Of a DNA stretch of 27,391 nt, positions 2,935 to 27,391 are shown piece by piece. Numbering within the stretch: position 1 is the first letter of the stretch; each line of letters starts with the position of its first letter. This stretch comes from a virus: the IMG/VR virus record IMGVR_UViG_3300008448_000493, positions 1-27,391 of that record; one strand, given 5' to 3'. The notes beneath the pieces were generated by a model. It had not been told where the DNA came from, did no database searches, and saw only the letters and a program-made list of their open reading frames with translations. The translations under genes were made by a program, and so were the position numbers.

Positions 2935-3910
2935 AAAGTTCACTACTAAAAGTAATCTTTGTGCAGAGTATCGTGAAAAGTTTGGTTGGGAGATGCCATC
3001 TTTAAAACTTGCACGTATAATATATAATGACAATAAGTTATTATTTAAGGATGTTGAAAATGTAAGGGGGATACTTAGAAACATTGAAGGTAAACAAGGT
3101 AAAAAAAGCACAGCTAAGGTAATTAAACAATTAGAAAATAGAGCACTAAATCCATACAAGTTACCAAGCAGTGATGAAACTATATACGATCCTTTTATAA
3201 TTAAAGATAAAAGAGTTCTCGTTTTGTCTGATATACACATTCCTTACCATTCAATAGAAGCTATAACCATAGCTTTTGATTGGGCAAAGAAACAGAAGCC
3301 TGATGCAATACTTTTAAATGGAGATACATTAGACTTTTTTGGGTTAAGTAGATATGCTAAAGATCCAAAGAAACGAAGTATATCTTCTGAACTTGAATCG
3401 TTTAAAGAATTTGTTAATATATTAAAGAAAACATTTAATGCTAAAATATATTTTAAGATAGGCAACCATGAGGAAAGATACGAGCATTATCTGTGGATGA
3501 AAGCAGGAGAGATAATGGGTGTTGATGAATTTGATATATCTAATATACTTAAAGCAAGGGCAGAGGGAATAGAGGTTATAGGAGATAAGAGGATTATCAA
3601 AGCAGGAGATTTAAACATTATACATGGACACGAATATCCTGGTGTGTTTAGTCCTGTGAACATAGCAAGAGGATTATTTACAAAGGCTAAGGTATCTGCC
3701 ATGCAGGGGCATAACCATCAGAGCAGTGAGCATAGTGAATCTGACATGAATGGTAAGATTACAACAACATGGTCATTAGGTTGTTTATCAGAGTTGCATC
3801 CATTGTATATGCCATTAAACAAATGGAATCATGGTTTTGCTTTTGTAGAGATTGACGGAGAAGATTTCCAAGTACAGAATAAAAGAATATATAAAGGAAA
3901 AGTGTTATGA
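2924..3910 (+). CDS. calcineurin-like metallophosphoesterase
   Basis: In 328-residue numbering, all five metallophosphoesterase blocks are present: LSDIHIPYH (D103, H105), NGDTLDF (D134), GNHEERY (N181, H182), HGHEY (H234) and GHNHQ (H263, H265). Together these bind two metal ions and hydrolyse phosphate esters. The N-terminal 90 residues (KLARIIYNDNKLLFKDVENVRGILR) form a helical domain resembling an Arg/Lys-rich DNA-binding region of phage homologues. Likely substrates are nucleic acid ends or cyclic nucleotides, but this is open. The start is uncertain: ATG 2924 overlaps the endolysin by 11 bases and is preferred over ATG 2900, which would overlap by 35. Confidence 0.85.
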   Translation: MENKKFTTKSNLCAEYREKFGWEMPSLKLARIIYNDNKLLFKDVENVRGILRNIEGKQGKKSTAKVIKQLENRALNPYKLPSSDETIYDPFIIKDKRVLVLSDIHIPYHSIEAITIAFDWAKKQKPDAILLNGDTLDFFGLSRYAKDPKKRSISSELESFKEFVNILKKTFNAKIYFKIGNHEERYEHYLWMKAGEIMGVDEFDISNILKARAEGIEVIGDKRIIKAGDLNIIHGHEYPGVFSPVNIARGLFTKAKVSAMQGHNHQSSEHSESDMNGKITTTWSLGCLSELHPLYMPLNKWNHGFAFVEIDGEDFQVQNKRIYKGKVL

Positions 3911-5134: not shown

Positions 5135-5237
5135 TAGCAGTAAAACAACATTTGGTAAAAGAAAAAGAGGTAAACATAAAAAATCATATAATAAACATGA
5201 CAGATCAGAACGCAATTATCGTGGTCAAGGTCGCTGA
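5118..5237 (+). CDS. 39-residue highly basic protein
   Basis: The ATG at 5118 opens a 39-residue frame that starts MAKATDSSKTTFGKRKRGKH and ends ERNYRGQGR. It is dominated by Lys, Arg and His. A short protein with GKRKxGKxKKSYNK and a YRGQGR terminus recurs in many Bacteroidota phages, from memory, which is the main reason to accept an ORF this small. It overlaps the methyltransferase by 17 bases and the ParB-like gene by 41 bases in another frame. It probably binds nucleic acid or an acidic partner. Confidence 0.6.
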   Translation: MAKATDSSKTTFGKRKRGKHKKSYNKHDRSERNYRGQGR

Positions 5238-5802
5238 TGTAAAAGCGAATCCTAATAACCCAAGAATTATTAAAGATGATAAGTTTAAGAAACTGGTAAA
5301 ATCTATTCAAGACTTTCCAGAGATGCTTAAATTAAGACCTATTGTAGTAAATGATGATATGGTTGTACTTGGTGGAAACATGAGGTTCAAGGCTTGTAAA
5401 GAGGCAGGGTTAAAAGAGATACCTATTATTAAAGCAAGTTCATTAACAGAAGAACAACAGAAAGAATTTATTATTAAAGATAATGTTGGATATGGTGAAT
5501 GGGATTGGAGTATGTTGGCTAACGAATGGGATTCTGAAAAATTAAATGAATGGGGAATAGATATTATTGGTTTTGATAATGTAGAAAGTTTAGGTGATAC
5601 ATTTAGTTTGCCAGATGGAGAAAAGCCACCATTTCAGCAAATGACATTTACTTTAGCAGATGAACAGGCAATTGTAATAAAAAATGCATTAGATGAAATA
5701 AAAAAAAGTGAAGAATATAAATATTGTGAAACATTCGGAAATGAAAATAGTAATGGGAATGCTTTATATTTACTTATATCAAATATGACAAATCAAAGAT
5801 AA
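5197..5802 (+). CDS. ParB/Srx-fold nuclease-like protein
   Basis: In 201-residue numbering, the ParB N-terminal (Srx-like) fold spans about residues 7-100. It has NPNNPR at 18-23 and the nucleotide-binding motif GGNMRFKA at 59-66, followed by the helix TEEQQKEFIIKDN. Residues 100-130 (WDWSMLANEWD) match the usual continuation in phage ParB-like proteins. A separate C-terminal module (MTFTLADEQ ... GNENSNGNAL, about 149-190) is also seen next to DNA-modification proteins. I prefer ATG 5197 over the in-frame TTG at 5152, because it puts the core domain at the N terminus. Phage ParB-fold proteins may bind DNA or hydrolyse nucleotides. The context suggests a role in DNA modification or packaging. 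It is joined to the next gene by an overlap at 5802. Confidence 0.8.
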   Translation: MTDQNAIIVVKVADVKANPNNPRIIKDDKFKKLVKSIQDFPEMLKLRPIVVNDDMVVLGGNMRFKACKEAGLKEIPIIKASSLTEEQQKEFIIKDNVGYGEWDWSMLANEWDSEKLNEWGIDIIGFDNVESLGDTFSLPDGEKPPFQQMTFTLADEQAIVIKNALDEIKKSEEYKYCETFGNENSNGNALYLLISNMTNQR

Positions 5803-6485
5803 TGTCTAATATAAAAAATATTGAAGTTAAAATTATAAAATCAGATATTGCAAGAAAATATACATTGGAATATCATTATATGAAAACATTTCCAATAGCT
5901 AAAATATGTTTTGGGGTTTTTTTTGATACAAAATTGCAAGGTGTCATAACATTTGGTGAAAGCACTTCAACTTTTGCAAAAATTAAAAAAATATTGCCAA
6001 AAATTAAAAAAAACGAGGTTATAGAAATGCAAAGAATGAACTTATTAGATACATTAGGTCATAATTCAGAAAGTTATGTATTAGGAAAAATATACGAGTT
6101 GTTTAAAAAAAATACTAAAATTAAAGTTATTGTAACCCATGCAGGAGGATGTAAAAATGACTGTGGAATAGTTTATCAATCATCAAGTTGGTTATATTTT
6201 GGTAAAGAAAAATGCGAAGATTTTTATTTGACAAAAAATGGTGAATATAAAAATATAATAGCACCAATGAGATTCGGACGTGTTCCAAAAAATATAAAAG
6301 GCGGACAAAAAATTGGTGAATATTTATTTGGTGAAGGACAATTAATAAAAAGTTATAGATATTTATATTTATATCCAATAAATAAAGGAATTCGTGTATA
6401 TTTACAATCTAAATCAATGCCATATCCCAAGGATAGTTTAATATTTAGGAAAAATCAAAAATGGATAAATGGGGGAGACCAATAG
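5802..6485 (+). CDS. Mom-like DNA-modification acyltransferase, copy A
   Basis: The 227-residue protein has the layout I associate with phage Mu Mom-like, GNAT-type proteins: YHYMK at 24-28, CFGVF at 36-40, GVITFG at 47-52, EMQRM at 75-79, NSES at 88-91, THAGG at 112-116 and GIVYQSSSWLYFG at 122-134. Mu Mom converts DNA adenine to N6-carbamoylmethyl-adenine and so blocks restriction. Copy B is collinear over the first 135 residues and then diverges. The last five codons (GGG GGA GAC CAA TAG) are also the 5' end of a tRNA-like RNA at 6471-6520. The gene is visibly more A-rich than the structural genes. The family call is from motifs only, and the acyl donor is unknown. Confidence 0.72.
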   Translation: MSNIKNIEVKIIKSDIARKYTLEYHYMKTFPIAKICFGVFFDTKLQGVITFGESTSTFAKIKKILPKIKKNEVIEMQRMNLLDTLGHNSESYVLGKIYELFKKNTKIKVIVTHAGGCKNDCGIVYQSSSWLYFGKEKCEDFYLTKNGEYKNIIAPMRFGRVPKNIKGGQKIGEYLFGEGQLIKSYRYLYLYPINKGIRVYLQSKSMPYPKDSLIFRKNQKWINGGDQ

Positions 6486-6520
6486 GGGTTTAAAATACAG
6501 TTCGAACCTGTACTCCTCCA
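6471..6520 (+). ncRNA. tRNA-Ala-like minihelix lacking an anticodon arm
   Basis: Bases 6471-6477 (GGGGGAG) pair over 7 bp with 6513-6519 (CTCCTCC), with one G:T wobble. A perfect 5-bp T stem (TACAG 6496-6500 with CTGTA 6508-6512) closes a fully canonical TTCGAAC loop and stacks directly on the acceptor stem. The unpaired base after the stem is A (position 73). Only 18 nt separate the acceptor strand from the T stem, against about 41 in a normal tRNA. There is no anticodon arm and at best a 3-bp D-arm remnant (ACC/GGT around AATAGG). The wobble pair is position 3:70, and G1:C72, G2:C71, G3:U70, G4:C69, A73 are the bases of bacterial tRNA-Ala that suffice for alanylation of minihelices. CCA is not encoded (ACATT follows). 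Confidence 0.6.
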
Positions 6521-6529
6521 CATTATAAA

Positions 6530-7201
6530 ATGAGTAAAGTTAAAGATATACAAATCAAAATAATAAACTCCAAAATCGCTAATGATTTTGTTAGAAAATA
6601 TCATTATAGTAAAAAGGTTGTTCCTAATTCAACATTGCATTTCGGAGCATTTCTTGATAATAGATTGCATGGTGTATTATCATATGGTCCAAGTATAAAT
6701 AAAAAAGGAACAATTAATTTAGTAGAAAATACAGGATGGAATGAGTTTATAGAATTAAATAGAATGGCTTTTGATGATTATTTGCCAAGAAATTCAGAAA
6801 GTAGATGTATAGCAATCACAATTAAATTAATTAAAAAAAATGCACCACAAATAAAATGGATTATAAGTTTTGCAGATGGAACTCAATGCGGAGATGGAAC
6901 TATATATAGAGCAAGTGGTTTTAAATTAGTTGGAATTGTAGATAATACTGCATTGAGAATTAATCCAAAAACAGGCGAATCTATTCACGTTATACAAGCC
7001 CATCATTTAAAAATAACAAATGAATTTAAAAAATGGAAGCCATTTGAAGGAAAACAATTAAAATATATATACCTAATAGATAAAACATGTAAAATAAATG
7101 CAAAAATTTTACCATTTAGTTATATAGATATAGTAAATGCTGGTATGTATAAAGGGCAAAAAATTAGTTTAGAAAAAAGAAAACAGGCGGATATAGCATA
7201 A
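6530..7201 (+). CDS. Mom-like DNA-modification acyltransferase, copy B
   Basis: The 223-residue product is homologous to copy A. Shared elements at identical positions are YHYSK (24-28), HFGAF (37-41), GVLSYG (48-53), ELNRM (75-79) and NSES (88-91), with SFADG and GTIYRASGFKLVG (123-135) following. The C-terminal third differs from copy A and carries its own basic end (SLEKRKQADIA). It starts 9 bases after the first tRNA-like RNA. Its last codons (GCG GAT ATA GCA TAA) form the 5' strand of the tRNA-Gly-like RNA at 7187-7259. Tandem, diverged copies suggest different donors or targets. Same family and same caveats as copy A. Confidence 0.72.
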   Translation: MSKVKDIQIKIINSKIANDFVRKYHYSKKVVPNSTLHFGAFLDNRLHGVLSYGPSINKKGTINLVENTGWNEFIELNRMAFDDYLPRNSESRCIAITIKLIKKNAPQIKWIISFADGTQCGDGTIYRASGFKLVGIVDNTALRINPKTGESIHVIQAHHLKITNEFKKWKPFEGKQLKYIYLIDKTCKINAKILPFSYIDIVNAGMYKGQKISLEKRKQADIA

Positions 7202-7259
7202 TGGAAATGCGGTTATTATTCCAAATAACAGAAGGCGGTTCGATTCCGACCTATCCGCT
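7187..7259 (+). tRNA. tRNA-Gly(TCC)-like RNA with aberrant anticodon loop and T stem
   Basis: The acceptor stem is perfect (GCGGATA 7187-7193 with TATCCGC 7252-7258), followed by discriminator T 7259. The D arm GCAT/ATGC (7196-7199, 7207-7210) closes loop AATGGAA. The anticodon stem GTTAT/ATAAC (7212-7216, 7225-7229) closes an 8-nt loop, TATTCCAA, that reads TCC in the usual T-TCC-AA setting but has one extra T. The T stem GGCGG/CCGACC has a bulged A at 7249 and encloses TTCGATT. U73, G1:C72, C2:G71 and C35-C36 are the bacterial glycine identity bases, and the D-loop TATAATGG-type sequence resembles bacterial tRNA-Gly(TCC). CCA is not encoded (CAAC follows). The two defects suggest poor translation competence but retained charging. 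Confidence 0.7.
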
Positions 7260-23481: not shown

Positions 23482-23829
23482 ATGAGTTCAGATTTCAGAC
23501 CAGGAAACTTTGATATACAGATAAAGAAAGGCGATACATGGCAAGAGGTTTTTGCCTTAACGCTTAACTCTGCACCTATCAATTTAACAGGATCAACAAT
23601 AACTATCACTATTAAAAATAATACTTGCGATAATAATACTGTTCTAACATTTAGTAATGGAAGCGGTATAACTATAGGCGGTGTTAGTAGCAATAATATT
23701 ATTATCAAAAAAGATATAACCCTTGATGCTAAAGATTATGTTTGGGAGTTAAAGATATTAGCTACAGACAATACAACAAGGACATACCTTTGGGGTAATT
23801 TTATAGTAGATGATAATTTTTCAGAATGA
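23482..23829 (+). CDS. BppU-like baseplate/fibre-anchor domain protein, 115 aa
   Basis: The single beta domain reads FDIQIKKGDTWQEVFAL then INLTGSTITITIKN, with the KGDTW and TGxxxxITIK strands typical of N-terminal domains of receptor-binding-protein adaptors (BppU_N-like) that link fibres to a baseplate. It directly precedes and overlaps (ATGA, 23826-23829) the large fibre gene, consistent with attaching it. Assigned by motif pattern. Confidence 0.65.
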   Translation: MSSDFRPGNFDIQIKKGDTWQEVFALTLNSAPINLTGSTITITIKNNTCDNNTVLTFSNGSGITIGGVSSNNIIIKKDITLDAKDYVWELKILATDNTTRTYLWGNFIVDDNFSE

Positions 23830-26800
23830 GTGTTGAAATAAATGTTACAGATCAGATTATTGAAGTTACACCGACAGATGCACAGATTGATGTTAATATA
23901 ACAGAAACACCTGTAGTAGTTGATGTAACCGATCAGATTATTGAGATTTCAGAAACAGGTTTGCAAGGTCCACAAGGTCCAGCAGGTCCAGGTGTTCCCA
24001 TAGGTGGTACAACGGGGCAGATACTTGCTAAAAATTCTGCTACCAATTATGATACTCTTTGGATTGATAATGCAGTAGGAACAGTTACTTCAGTAAATGC
24101 TTCTGGTGTTAGTGGAATAAGTGTCAGCGGTGGACCTGTTACATCTTCAGGAACTTTATTAATTACTAATACTGCACCTGACCAAATAGTTAGCTTAACA
24201 GGTACAGGTACAACATCAATAAGTGGAACTTACCCTTCATTCACAATTAATAGTGCTGACCAATACATAGGAACAGTTACAAGTATTGCAACAACAGCAC
24301 CAATAACAGGAGGAACAATAACTGCATCAGGTACTATTGGAATAACACAATCAGGGATTTCAACAGACGGCTATTTAAGTTCTACAGATTGGAATACTTT
24401 TAATAATAAGCAAGGTACAATAACTTTAACTACAACAGGTACAAGCGGTGCAGCTACATTAATAGGTAATACATTAAATATACCACAATATGAGGCAGAG
24501 GGCAACTATGTAACAACTGCTACAACATTAACAATAAATGGAACTACCTATGATTTATCAGCAAATAGGTCATGGAGTGTTGGTACAGTAACAAGTGTTA
24601 ATGCAAGTGCAGGAACAGGAATTTCTGTTAGTGGAGTGCCTATTACAGGTAGCGGAACAATTACTATTACTAACACAGCACCAGATCAGGTTGTAAGTTT
24701 AACAGGTACAGGAACAACGAGTGTTACAGGTACTTATCCAAATTTTACAATTAATAGTGCAGACCAATACACAGGAACAGTTACTTCAGTTGGACTATCA
24801 ATGCCTTCTGCTTTTACTGTTAGCAATAGTCCGATAACAGGTGCAGGTACTTTAACTGTAATAGGAGCAGGTACTGCTTCACAATACATTCGTGGAGATG
24901 GTCAGTTAGGAGATTTCCCAACAGTAGGCGGTGGTGGTGGCGCATCTGTTAGTTATTATTTAAATGGCTCTGTTAATCAAGGTACAATAGGTGGCAGCAC
25001 ATATTATGAAGTTAGCAGAACTCCAGTAATCGGTGTTGGTACTGATTTTTCAACATCAACAAATGGATTAATAGCGCAGTTTATTACAGATGCTAATGAC
25101 CCTAATAGATTATTAATTCCTGGTGGTAACTTTAATTTAGAGTTTTATTTTTCTGCATCTTCAGGTGGAGGTAATCCAGATTTTTATGTTGAGTTATATA
25201 AATATGACGGAACTAATTTTACATTAATTGCATCAAATAGTACAAGTCCAGAGTTAATTGCTTTTGGAACAACTATAAACCCATATTTTAGTTCATTAGC
25301 AGTACCTGAAACTATTATAGCTGCCACAGATAGACTTGCTTATAGAATATTTGTAAACACAAGTGGAAGAACTATTACCTTACATACAGAAAATAGTCAT
25401 TTATGTCAGATAATAACAACTTTTACAACAGGCTTATCTGCATTAAATGGACTAACTGCACAGGTTCAATATTTTTCTACAGGAACAAGCGGAACTGATT
25501 TTAACATATCAAGTGTTACAGATACACATACTTTTAATCTACCTACTGCTTCTGCTACAAATCGTGGTGCTTTAAGCACTGCTGATTGGGGTACATTCAA
25601 TAATAAAGAAAATGTTTTATCATTTACATCTCCTTTATCAAGAAGTATAAATACAATATCTATACCTGCGGCAACATCAAGCATCAATGGATATTTAACA
25701 TCATCAGATTGGACAACTTTTAATAATAAACAAAATGCAATAACACTAACCACAAGTGGTTCAAGTGGTGCATCTACTTTTATATCAAACACATTAAACA
25801 TACCTAATTACACATTAAGTGGATTAGGCGGTGTTCCAACAACAAGAACATTAACTATCAATGGAACATCTTACGATTTAAGTGCAGATAGGTCATGGAG
25901 TGTGGGAACGGTAACAAGTGTTGCTGCTTTAACAATAGGTACAACAGGAACAGATATTACTTCTACGGTTGCTAATGGAACTACAACGCCTGTAATAACA
26001 TTAAATATACCAACTGCATCAGCTACTAATCGTGGTGCTTTAAGTACTGCCGATTGGACAACTTTTAACGCAAAGGTGGGGGGTAGTGGAACAGAGAATT
26101 ACATTACCAAATGGAATAACGCAGGTGGTACAACTATTGGCAATAGTTTAATATTTGATAATGGAACAAGTATAGGTGTAAATACAACAACACCGCAGAA
26201 CTCTTTTGATATTATTAGGGGTACTGCAGGTACTATGCCACGTTCTAATTATGAATCAGCATCTTTTTCTTATAACGGCGATGCTAAACTTGGTGTTTAT
26301 TCTTCCGCAACAGATATAAGTAATAATGGGGCATCTGTAATATTTGGTAATTCGCAGACTACAGTTGGTTCGCTATATACAGGTGGAGAGGTTCAGTATC
26401 TCGGAAATACAACAATAGCAAATAGCAGTTTGAGATTTAGTTTTGTTGGCAGAAATTCAAGCGGTGTAGTTACATCTGCGGTTGAGAACGCTTTAAGGAT
26501 TTACCATGATGGTAGGATTGTAATGAGTCCAACCCTATCGGGTGCGTATGTAGGGGCATCTACACCGAGATTAATTATAGGTACAACTACAGATACAAGC
26601 GAAACCCTACAAATTACTGGTACTGCTAAAATCACAGGTAACTTAACAGTAGATACCAATACGTTGTTTGTTGATGCTACGAATAATAGGGTAGGTATAG
26701 GTACTGCAAGTCCTGCCACACCATTACACATAGAAGGTAATAGTACTGGTGGTGACGTACAGCTTAGAGTTAAGAACAATAATTTAGCAAACGGAAATAA

Positions 26801-27391
26801 ATATGTTTCACTATTTGTTGGTGGAACATCAACTGGTATTACAGAATGGAACAATAGTGGTGTATTAGAATCAGCAGCAGGTACAGGTTCAAATTTAGTA
26901 TTAAGTAATTATGAGGCTGGAAATATAATATTTCAGACTAATAACAGGTCTGAGAAAATGCGTATCACAAGTGGTGGGAATCTTGGTTTAGGAGTAAGTC
27001 CTTCTGCCTGGCGTTCTGCTATGAAAGCATTTCAGATAGATGAACGAGTTTCTTTATTTTCAGGTTCTACAAAAGAAACCATTTTAGGATATAATTATTA
27101 TCAAAATTCTTCATCTCAAAATATATATATTGCAAGCGCAGGTGCCAATGCATATATAATGGATGGTTCCCATAAATGGATAACCGCCCCATCAGGCACA
27201 GCAGGTGCAGCTATAACCTTCACCCAAGCAATGACACTTAATGCGAGTGGGAATCTTGGTTTAGGAGTAAGTCCTTCTGCGTGGAGTACATTTAAAGTAT
27301 TACAAGTAGGTTCTTTAAGTTCTTTATATTCATCTCCATCAACTTATTTAGGTCATAACATATATTATAATTCAGGCAACAAATATATTGC
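23826..27391 (+). CDS. tail fibre / receptor-binding protein (3' end beyond window)
   Basis: ATG 23826, in the ATGA overlap, opens a frame with no stop to base 27391 (at least 1188 codons). Residues 1-42 are a strand-rich anchor with a repeated VTDQIIE motif. Residues 45-56 are collagen-like (GLQGPQGPAGPG). The shaft has repeated Ser/Thr/Gly modules (TVTSVNAS, SLTGTGTTS, TFNNKQ, TINGTTYDLSANRSW, SATNRGALSTADW). Later come NRVGIGTASPATPLHIEG and GLGVSPSAW units that usually precede a C-terminal chaperone or receptor-binding domain, which is outside the window. It should recognise the host surface. Confidence 0.85.
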   Translation, partial: MSVEINVTDQIIEVTPTDAQIDVNITETPVVVDVTDQIIEISETGLQGPQGPAGPGVPIGGTTGQILAKNSATNYDTLWIDNAVGTVTSVNASGVSGISVSGGPVTSSGTLLITNTAPDQIVSLTGTGTTSISGTYPSFTINSADQYIGTVTSIATTAPITGGTITASGTIGITQSGISTDGYLSSTDWNTFNNKQGTITLTTTGTSGAATLIGNTLNIPQYEAEGNYVTTATTLTINGTTYDLSANRSWSVGTVTSVNASAGTGISVSGVPITGSGTITITNTAPDQVVSLTGTGTTSVTGTYPNFTINSADQYTGTVTSVGLSMPSAFTVSNSPITGAGTLTVIGAGTASQYIRGDGQLGDFPTVGGGGGASVSYYLNGSVNQGTIGGSTYYEVSRTPVIGVGTDFSTSTNGLIAQFITDANDPNRLLIPGGNFNLEFYFSASSGGGNPDFYVELYKYDGTNFTLIASNSTSPELIAFGTTINPYFSSLAVPETIIAATDRLAYRIFVNTSGRTITLHTENSHLCQIITTFTTGLSALNGLTAQVQYFSTGTSGTDFNISSVTDTHTFNLPTASATNRGALSTADWGTFNNKENVLSFTSPLSRSINTISIPAATSSINGYLTSSDWTTFNNKQNAITLTTSGSSGASTFISNTLNIPNYTLSGLGGVPTTRTLTINGTSYDLSADRSWSVGTVTSVAALTIGTTGTDITSTVANGTTTPVITLNIPTASATNRGALSTADWTTFNAKVGGSGTENYITKWNNAGGTTIGNSLIFDNGTSIGVNTTTPQNSFDIIRGTAGTMPRSNYESASFSYNGDAKLGVYSSATDISNNGASVIFGNSQTTVGSLYTGGEVQYLGNTTIANSSLRFSFVGRNSSGVVTSAVENALRIYHDGRIVMSPTLSGAYVGASTPRLIIGTTTDTSETLQITGTAKITGNLTVDTNTLFVDATNNRVGIGTASPATPLHIEGNSTGGDVQLRVKNNNLANGNKYVSLFVGGTSTGITEWNNSGVLESAAGTGSNLVLSNYEAGNIIFQTNNRSEKMRITSGGNLGLGVSPSAWRSAMKAFQIDERVSLFSGSTKETILGYNYYQNSSSQNIYIASAGANAYIMDGSHKWITAPSGTAGAAITFTQAMTLNASGNLGLGVSPSAWSTFKVLQVGSLSSLYSSPSTYLGHNIYYNSGNKYI
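24078..24280 (+). repeat. fibre shaft repeat module 1, copy 1
   Basis: This 203-base unit encodes GTVTSVNAS ... TNTAPDQIVSLTGTGTTS ... FTINSADQY and is repeated, diverged, at 24582-24784 with identical length. It represents an internal duplication in the fibre shaft. Confidence 0.75.
24369..24597 (+). repeat. fibre shaft repeat module 2, copy 1
   Basis: This unit encodes GYLSSTDWNTFNNKQ ... ITLTTTGTSGAATLIGNTLN ... TINGTTYDLSANRSWSVGTV. A near copy lies 1320 bases downstream. Confidence 0.7.
24582..24784 (+). repeat. fibre shaft repeat module 1, copy 2
   Basis: Second copy of the 203-base unit at 24078-24280, encoding GTVTSVNAS ... TNTAPDQVVSLTGTGTTS ... FTINSADQY with substitutions but no length change. 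Confidence 0.75.
25689..25920 (+). repeat. fibre shaft repeat module 2, copy 2
   Basis: Second copy, encoding GYLTSSDWTTFNNKQ ... ITLTTSGSSGASTFISNTLN ... TINGTSYDLSADRSWSVGTV. It is 3 bases longer than copy 1. Confidence 0.7.
26974..27007 (+). repeat. 34-base exact direct repeat, copy 1
   Basis: A 34-base stretch starting GTGGGAATCTTGG and ending TCCTTCTGC recurs exactly at 27247-27280. It encodes the GNLGLGVSPSA motif of the fibre. Confidence 0.88.
27247..27280 (+). repeat. 34-base exact direct repeat, copy 2
   Basis: Exact copy of 26974-27007, 273 bases downstream and in the same reading frame, so recombination between the two would delete 91 codons without a frameshift. Confidence 0.88.

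Follow-up and report, generated by a model that had tools for sequence, protein, structure and literature searches.

Conserved tRNA-Like RNAs beside Viral mom Genes Suggest Charged tRNAs as Amino Acid Donors for DNA Modification

The window analyzed here, the whole of the 27,391-base virus record IMGVR_UViG_3300008448_000493, carries terminase, portal, and tail-related genes together with two paralogous genes of the Mom family of DNA modification enzymes. These genes, mom1 (positions 5802 to 6485) and mom2 (6530 to 7201), match the full Pfam Mom domain (PF25680) beyond its cutoff, with E values of 4e-37 and 4e-51, respectively. At the end of mom1 lies a transfer RNA (tRNA)-Ala-like element without an anticodon arm (6471 to 6520), and at the end of mom2 lies a tRNA-Gly-like element (7187 to 7259); all four features are on the plus strand. 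Our main subject is the first of these RNAs, the Ala-type, which is conserved and linked to mom1; the second is referred to as the Gly-type.

The original prediction, made from the window alone, placed a 50-nucleotide (nt) tRNA-Ala-like element at 6471 to 6520, and these coordinates prove exact. Its acceptor stem of 7 bp is formed by GGGGGAG (6471 to 6477) and CTCCTCC (6513 to 6519), with G3 at 6473 and U70 at 6517. The T arm (6496 to 6512, plus strand) pairs TACAG (6496 to 6500) with CTGTA (6508 to 6512) around a TTCGAAC loop (6501 to 6507), and the discriminator A73 is position 6520. In its acceptor stem, T arm, and discriminator (12 bp, TTCGAAC, and A73), the element thus has what a translation-competent tRNA has. 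The 18 nt separating the acceptor and T arm hold just a D-like hairpin of 3 bp (ACC-AATAGG-GGT, 6478 to 6489, plus strand), which the RNAalifold consensus recovered unaided, and no anticodon arm with a 7-nt loop. The claim of a minihelix therefore stands as to the absent anticodon arm but not as to a bare acceptor-T stack: the Ala-type RNA is made of an acceptor, a D-like arm, and a T arm, and the only missing parts are the anticodon arm and the variable region. The D-like hairpin, mom1, mom2, and the Gly-type partner did not figure in that prediction, which suggested no function.

Homologues were collected from IMG/VR by a search for mom1 relatives, which gave 22 loci, and by an alignment-based search, which gave 45; a scan of genome contigs added two mom1 loci only. 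A scan of the whole of IMG/VR with GGGGNNNACCAATAGGGGT alone returned 31 contigs, 29 of which combine a location at mom1/mom2 with the complete stack of 12 bp, G3:U70, and A73, the remaining two (L116 and L126) having neither the fold nor a mom gene. In a search that set no condition on the acceptor bases or on positions 70 and 73, the Ala-type RNA occurs in 19 distinct forms, and there is no broken copy among them. Compensatory changes run through both stems, as had been anticipated: in an alignment of 17 distinct sequences, the 204 pair cells hold standard pairs without exception, compared to 75% in shuffles, with 50 two-sided changes against 14 in shuffles, and none of 500 shuffles matches either value. 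Pairing is lost when the partner strand of this alignment is slid by 1 to 3 columns. Whereas T-stem pairs are of up to five types and the pairs near 3:70 swap freely, 3:70 itself is G:U in 17/17 aligned sequences. The strict conservation of this wobble extends to 45/45 hits of a detector that put no demand on 3:70 and to ten deep representatives, and A73 is present in all aligned variants and deep representatives, so that the tRNA-Ala identity set is conserved. With a strict detector, 1,127 control windows gave no match outside mom1 ends, all 13 hits being genuine copies behind mom1. A covariance model built from the aligned sequences gave 72 bits for L168, a homologue that had been held out, and 35.5 bits for L138, a distant one; neither Mu nor any other cultured Mom phage in the comparison gave a match. 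Among the tRNAs read in the genome that carries L168, there was no tRNA-Ala that could serve as a host counterpart.

This pattern bears on whether the element could be the remnant of a tRNA-Ala or of transfer-messenger RNA (tmRNA), left for example by prophage integration. A tRNA-like sequence in a phage invites such a reading, and the best match of the Ala-type RNA in the tRNA clan of Rfam is indeed tmRNA, at 13.3 bits, far under the gathering cutoff of 47. A remnant would not, however, be expected to show compensatory changes throughout both stems with no broken copy or homologue lacking the 3:70 G:U or A73, and the position of the element is fixed at mom1, not at an integrase or attachment site. 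Decay was judged implausible from the window alone, and the homologues bear this out; we reject an integration remnant on the covariation and regard a remnant of any kind as scarcely credible. As for tmRNA, the likeness of its tRNA-like domain is real, as this is also tRNA-Ala-like, with G3:U70, A73, and no anticodon arm, and tmRNA itself is charged by alanyl-tRNA synthetase (AlaRS). The Ala-type RNA, in contrast, stands alone at about 50 nt, has no mRNA-like region or pseudoknots, has a short D-like stem, and is linked to a DNA-modifying enzyme; an identification as tmRNA was rejected.

Deeper relatives, which are mom1 loci with 44 to 72% protein identity to the divergent query L093, carry the RNA at the same site with a different interior, while the GG..CC ends, G3:U70, and A73 remain constant. 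Their anticodon arm is reduced to varying degrees. It is shrunken in L136, which has an RNA of 74 nt, replaced by a small hairpin in L134, L137, and L162 (58 to 60 nt), and absent from L093, L138, L139, L167, and the window type (48 to 50 nt). Relatives also show covariation in the first hairpin of the interior, which is D-like (CGGC/GCCG, CGAC/GTCG, CTGC/GCAG, GTGC/GCAC, GAC/GTC, and GCG/CGC), with ACC/GGU being the same hairpin in the window type, and several relatives encode a CCA end. The homologues thus support the original prediction that the RNA keeps what AlaRS requires and drops what translation requires: the 3:70 G:U and A73 are kept, and the anticodon arm shrinks as the acceptor, D-like, and T parts stay. 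In AlaRS studies, synthetic minihelices and microhelices with an acceptor, a T arm, and G3:U70 are enough for alanylation. Whereas those are laboratory constructs, the Ala-type RNA is natural, conserved, and phage encoded and has a D-like hairpin. Armless mitochondrial tRNAs and the tRNA-like structures of plant viruses are likewise reduced or nontranslational tRNA shapes that are still charged, but the former lose the D or T arm and retain the anticodon, and the latter are 3' ends of RNA genomes.

The linkage to mom1 is complete in our sample of viral contigs. Counting overlapping fetches and related contigs, which are not independent events, the Ala-type RNA accompanies mom1 in 44/44 fetched mom1-bearing loci and is found in 0/67 mom2-only loci, the sole exception being a contig that is cut off 47 nt ahead of the element, at the place expected for mom1. 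The mom1 genes form one deep clade with a Shimodaira-Hasegawa approximate likelihood ratio test (SH-aLRT) support of 99, in which the RNA accompanies all intact members examined. Outside the linkage table, L160 holds a decayed copy around position 3520, where a joint loss has removed the 5' half of the RNA along with the end of mom1.

In most loci, the element sits just upstream of mom2, which raises the question of a cis-acting structure in the mRNA between the two genes, such as a terminator, a processing site, or a translation control. There is a precedent in Mu, whose mom is controlled through an mRNA hairpin bound by Com (PMC6483171). In L085, L086, and L090, however, mom1 and mom2 overlap directly, and an Ala-type RNA with its full fold lies on the opposite strand behind mom2 (these are the same contigs as L122, L128, and L119, respectively). 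In L085 and L090, it follows directly after the Gly-type element in tandem, and in L162, mom2 precedes mom1, with the Ala-type and Gly-type RNAs then following in tandem. Such antisense and displaced copies argue against a structure of the mom1 mRNA, as well as against selection on the protein encoded by the overlapping codons as the source of the pattern. Moreover, the element is not a Com-type hairpin; a plain hairpin would need no conserved G3:U70, A73, and T loop, and the interior sequence and length are free to vary. We consider a cis-acting role highly improbable, and a cis-regulatory element was rejected on the antisense placement. The Ala-type RNA is independent of mom1 in strand and would be a gene of its own.

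The mom2 gene has a comparable partner. The element at 7187 to 7259 scores 36.2 bits with the Rfam tRNA model, is given no proper anticodon by ARAGORN, and looks like a tRNA-Gly(UCC) with an 8-nt anticodon loop (UAUUCCAA) and U73 at 7259. Gly-type elements occur in about 76 of 80 mom2 loci, on either strand and at most about 250 nt from the end of mom2, with 72 being found by a strict detector. Among 59 distinct elements, the acceptor GCG is present in 59/59, U73 in 57/59, and CC in the anticodon loop in 57/59; 99.8% of acceptor and T-stem cells are paired, compared to 71.6% when shuffled, and two-sided changes number 196 against at most 70. The element of the window and its homologues thus carry the tRNA-Gly identity set (C2:G71, U73, C35, and C36), and we take GCG, U73, and CC to match the identity elements of bacterial glycyl-tRNA synthetase. 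Two members at mom2 ends, in L063 and L064, have A73 in place of U73 and an encoded CCA, which is unusual for a bacterial glycine tRNA.

The Gly-type element of the window departs from a translation-competent tRNA-Gly in its 8-nt anticodon loop and in a bulged A in the T stem. This bulge recurs in the 3' strand of the T stem throughout the Gly-type elements, with covarying flanking pairs; the strict detector demanded it, but A also stands at that site in four elements that the detector missed for other reasons (L001, L035, L062, and L079). The conserved bulge also explains why the Gly-type elements escaped a plain tRNA pattern that assumed an unbroken T stem of 5 bp. Since the T stem is gripped by EF-Tu, the bulge may bar a charged Gly-type RNA from translation, much as the missing anticodon arm may bar an Ala-type one. 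Candidate purposes of the bulged A are EF-Tu exclusion and Mom recognition. Gly-type elements are also found in a cultured phage, Psychrobacter phage Y8A (L173, OQ059336.1), where mom is followed at about 2160 to 2300 by two in tandem of about 65 nt each (GCGTGTA...TACACGC T CCA and GCGTATA...TATACGC T CCA). Y8A was published as being without tRNA genes (PMC10434257).

The Mom proteins were compared with Mu Mom. The best PDB match of an AlphaFold2 model of Mom1 (mean predicted local distance difference test score of 83) is Mu Mom (8bv8; E value of 2.9e-13 and template modeling score of 0.67), from which Mom1 is predicted to have the same GNAT-like fold. The Ser that is mutated in the inactive Mu structure 8bv8 (S124A) is present in all aligned Mom1 and Mom2 rows. 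Mom1 differs at otherwise conserved sites, having M27 and T29, which are Ser and Lys/Arg in Mom2 and the Mu type, and G115, which is Asp there; an altered donor pocket in Mom1 is possible on these substitutions. Mom1 and Mom2 are thus like Mu Mom in family, fold, and the conserved Ser, whereas Mu has a single, Com-regulated mom with no adjacent tRNA-like RNA.

Taken together with the two Mom clades, the two RNAs, and the two amino acid identities, which a donor role predicts, we judge it rather probable that the Ala-type RNA is a dedicated nontranslational tRNA, charged by AlaRS, that serves Mom1 as an alanyl donor for DNA adenine, with glycine being delivered likewise through the RNA of Mom2. 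From the conserved features, we infer its transcription, its charging, which these features strongly imply, its donor role, and the modification chemistry as follows. The Ala-type RNA would share a transcript with mom1, except where the two are on opposite strands and it would have a transcript of its own. Host enzymes of tRNA processing would trim it, and wherever the locus encodes no CCA, the host CCA-adding enzyme would complete the 3' end. The RNA would then be charged by host AlaRS through G3:U70 and A73. Mom1, with its GNAT fold and relationship to Mu Mom, would move the alanyl group from the RNA to the adenine amino group of phage DNA, and Mom2 would likewise transfer glycine carried by its tRNA-Gly-like RNA. 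Because N6-carbamoylmethyl-adenine (the Mu base) is isomeric with N6-glycyl-adenine, it would be obtainable by glycyl transfer followed by rearrangement. With an intramolecular Smiles-type rearrangement after acyl transfer, the product would be the Mu base in the case of glycine and N6-(1-carbamoylethyl)adenine in the case of alanine. Loss of the anticodon arm in the Ala-type and the weaker T stem of the Gly-type would keep the charged RNAs from translation.

There are precedents for separate parts of this scheme. Both FemX and leucyl/phenylalanyl-tRNA transferase have a GNAT fold and draw an amino acid from aminoacyl-tRNA, and a nonproteinogenic tRNA-Gly of Staphylococcus supplies the Fem peptidoglycan ligases. 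The latter is likewise a dedicated charged tRNA that works outside translation and serves a GNAT-fold transferase, but it has a full cloverleaf with an anticodon and a cell wall product, whereas the acceptor proposed here is DNA and the Ala version has no anticodon arm. Within the window, both tRNA-like elements overlap exactly the final 15 nt of their mom genes, stop codon included (6471 to 6485 and 7187 to 7201). Excision of either RNA would therefore truncate the mom mRNA, and one transcript may yield either a Mom enzyme or an RNA, a possible either-or mode of expression.

Several points weigh against the donor role. For the window sequence alone, the minimum-energy structure is a rival fold at -17.6 kcal/mol, compared to -15.4 kcal/mol for the canonical fold with the D hairpin; here comparison among the homologues settles the choice in favor of the canonical fold. 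After Mu Mom, the folds closest to Mom1 are GNATs that depend on coenzyme A (CoA). No such RNA lies behind mom in Mu or in the nine further Mom phages examined, all of them cultured and distant; Mom in these would have to use host Gly-tRNA or need no tRNA. No convincing Gly-type RNA was found in the searched region near mom2 in L006, L007, L039, and L074. A review assumes glycyl-CoA as the Mom donor, which is a prediction (PMC7824862), and the open-licence literature searched held no test of it. Nor did that literature, in a search that excluded preprints and most subscription journals, yield a paper linking Mom and tRNA.

Two other uses for a charged or tRNA-like RNA were weighed against the donor role. 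First, the RNA might be charged by AlaRS yet serve as a decoy for host AlaRS or for tRNA-acting defense or toxin enzymes, forming a shared counterdefense module with mom1. Phage tRNAs resistant to anticodon nucleases exist, an RNA without an anticodon arm could not be cut there, and Mom itself is a counterrestriction gene. A general decoy would nonetheless be expected away from mom too, and the scan of all IMG/VR gave no other context; the strict one-to-one linkage with the mom1 clade, the absence from mom2-only loci, and the corresponding Gly-type RNA of the mom2 clade also make a decoy unlikely. Second, the RNA might bind Mom1 as a scaffold or guide without being consumed. Linkage alone fits donor and scaffold equally, but a scaffold would have no need for synthetase identity elements, namely, the 3:70 wobble and A73 in the Ala-type and U73 and anticodon CC in the Gly-type, and we hold this cofactor role to be quite unlikely. 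With the donor role thus preferred for the Ala-type RNA, the broader system, two-channel tRNA-dependent DNA hypermodification, in which two Mom paralogues with their own tRNA-like donors place Gly- and Ala-derived groups on adenines and the alanine donor is a natural stand-alone tRNA without an anticodon, has in our estimation an even chance of being correct.

Directly upstream of mom1 lies a gene with a ParB_N domain (5152 to 5802, plus strand; Pfam ParB_N E value of 6e-8). The order of a ParB_N gene followed by mom also occurs in phage Y8A, and the gene is a possible member of a modification module. At the far end of the window, an open frame of at least 1,188 codons (23826 to 27389) runs past the window end and probably encodes a tail protein.

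Our analysis suggests that charged tRNAs serve these viruses as the source of amino acids attached to their DNA. If this is true, tRNA-borne amino acids would be building blocks for DNA, a use that to our knowledge is not established. The Ala-type RNA would then be nature's equivalent of the laboratory minihelix, conserved and reduced to the operational code of the acceptor.
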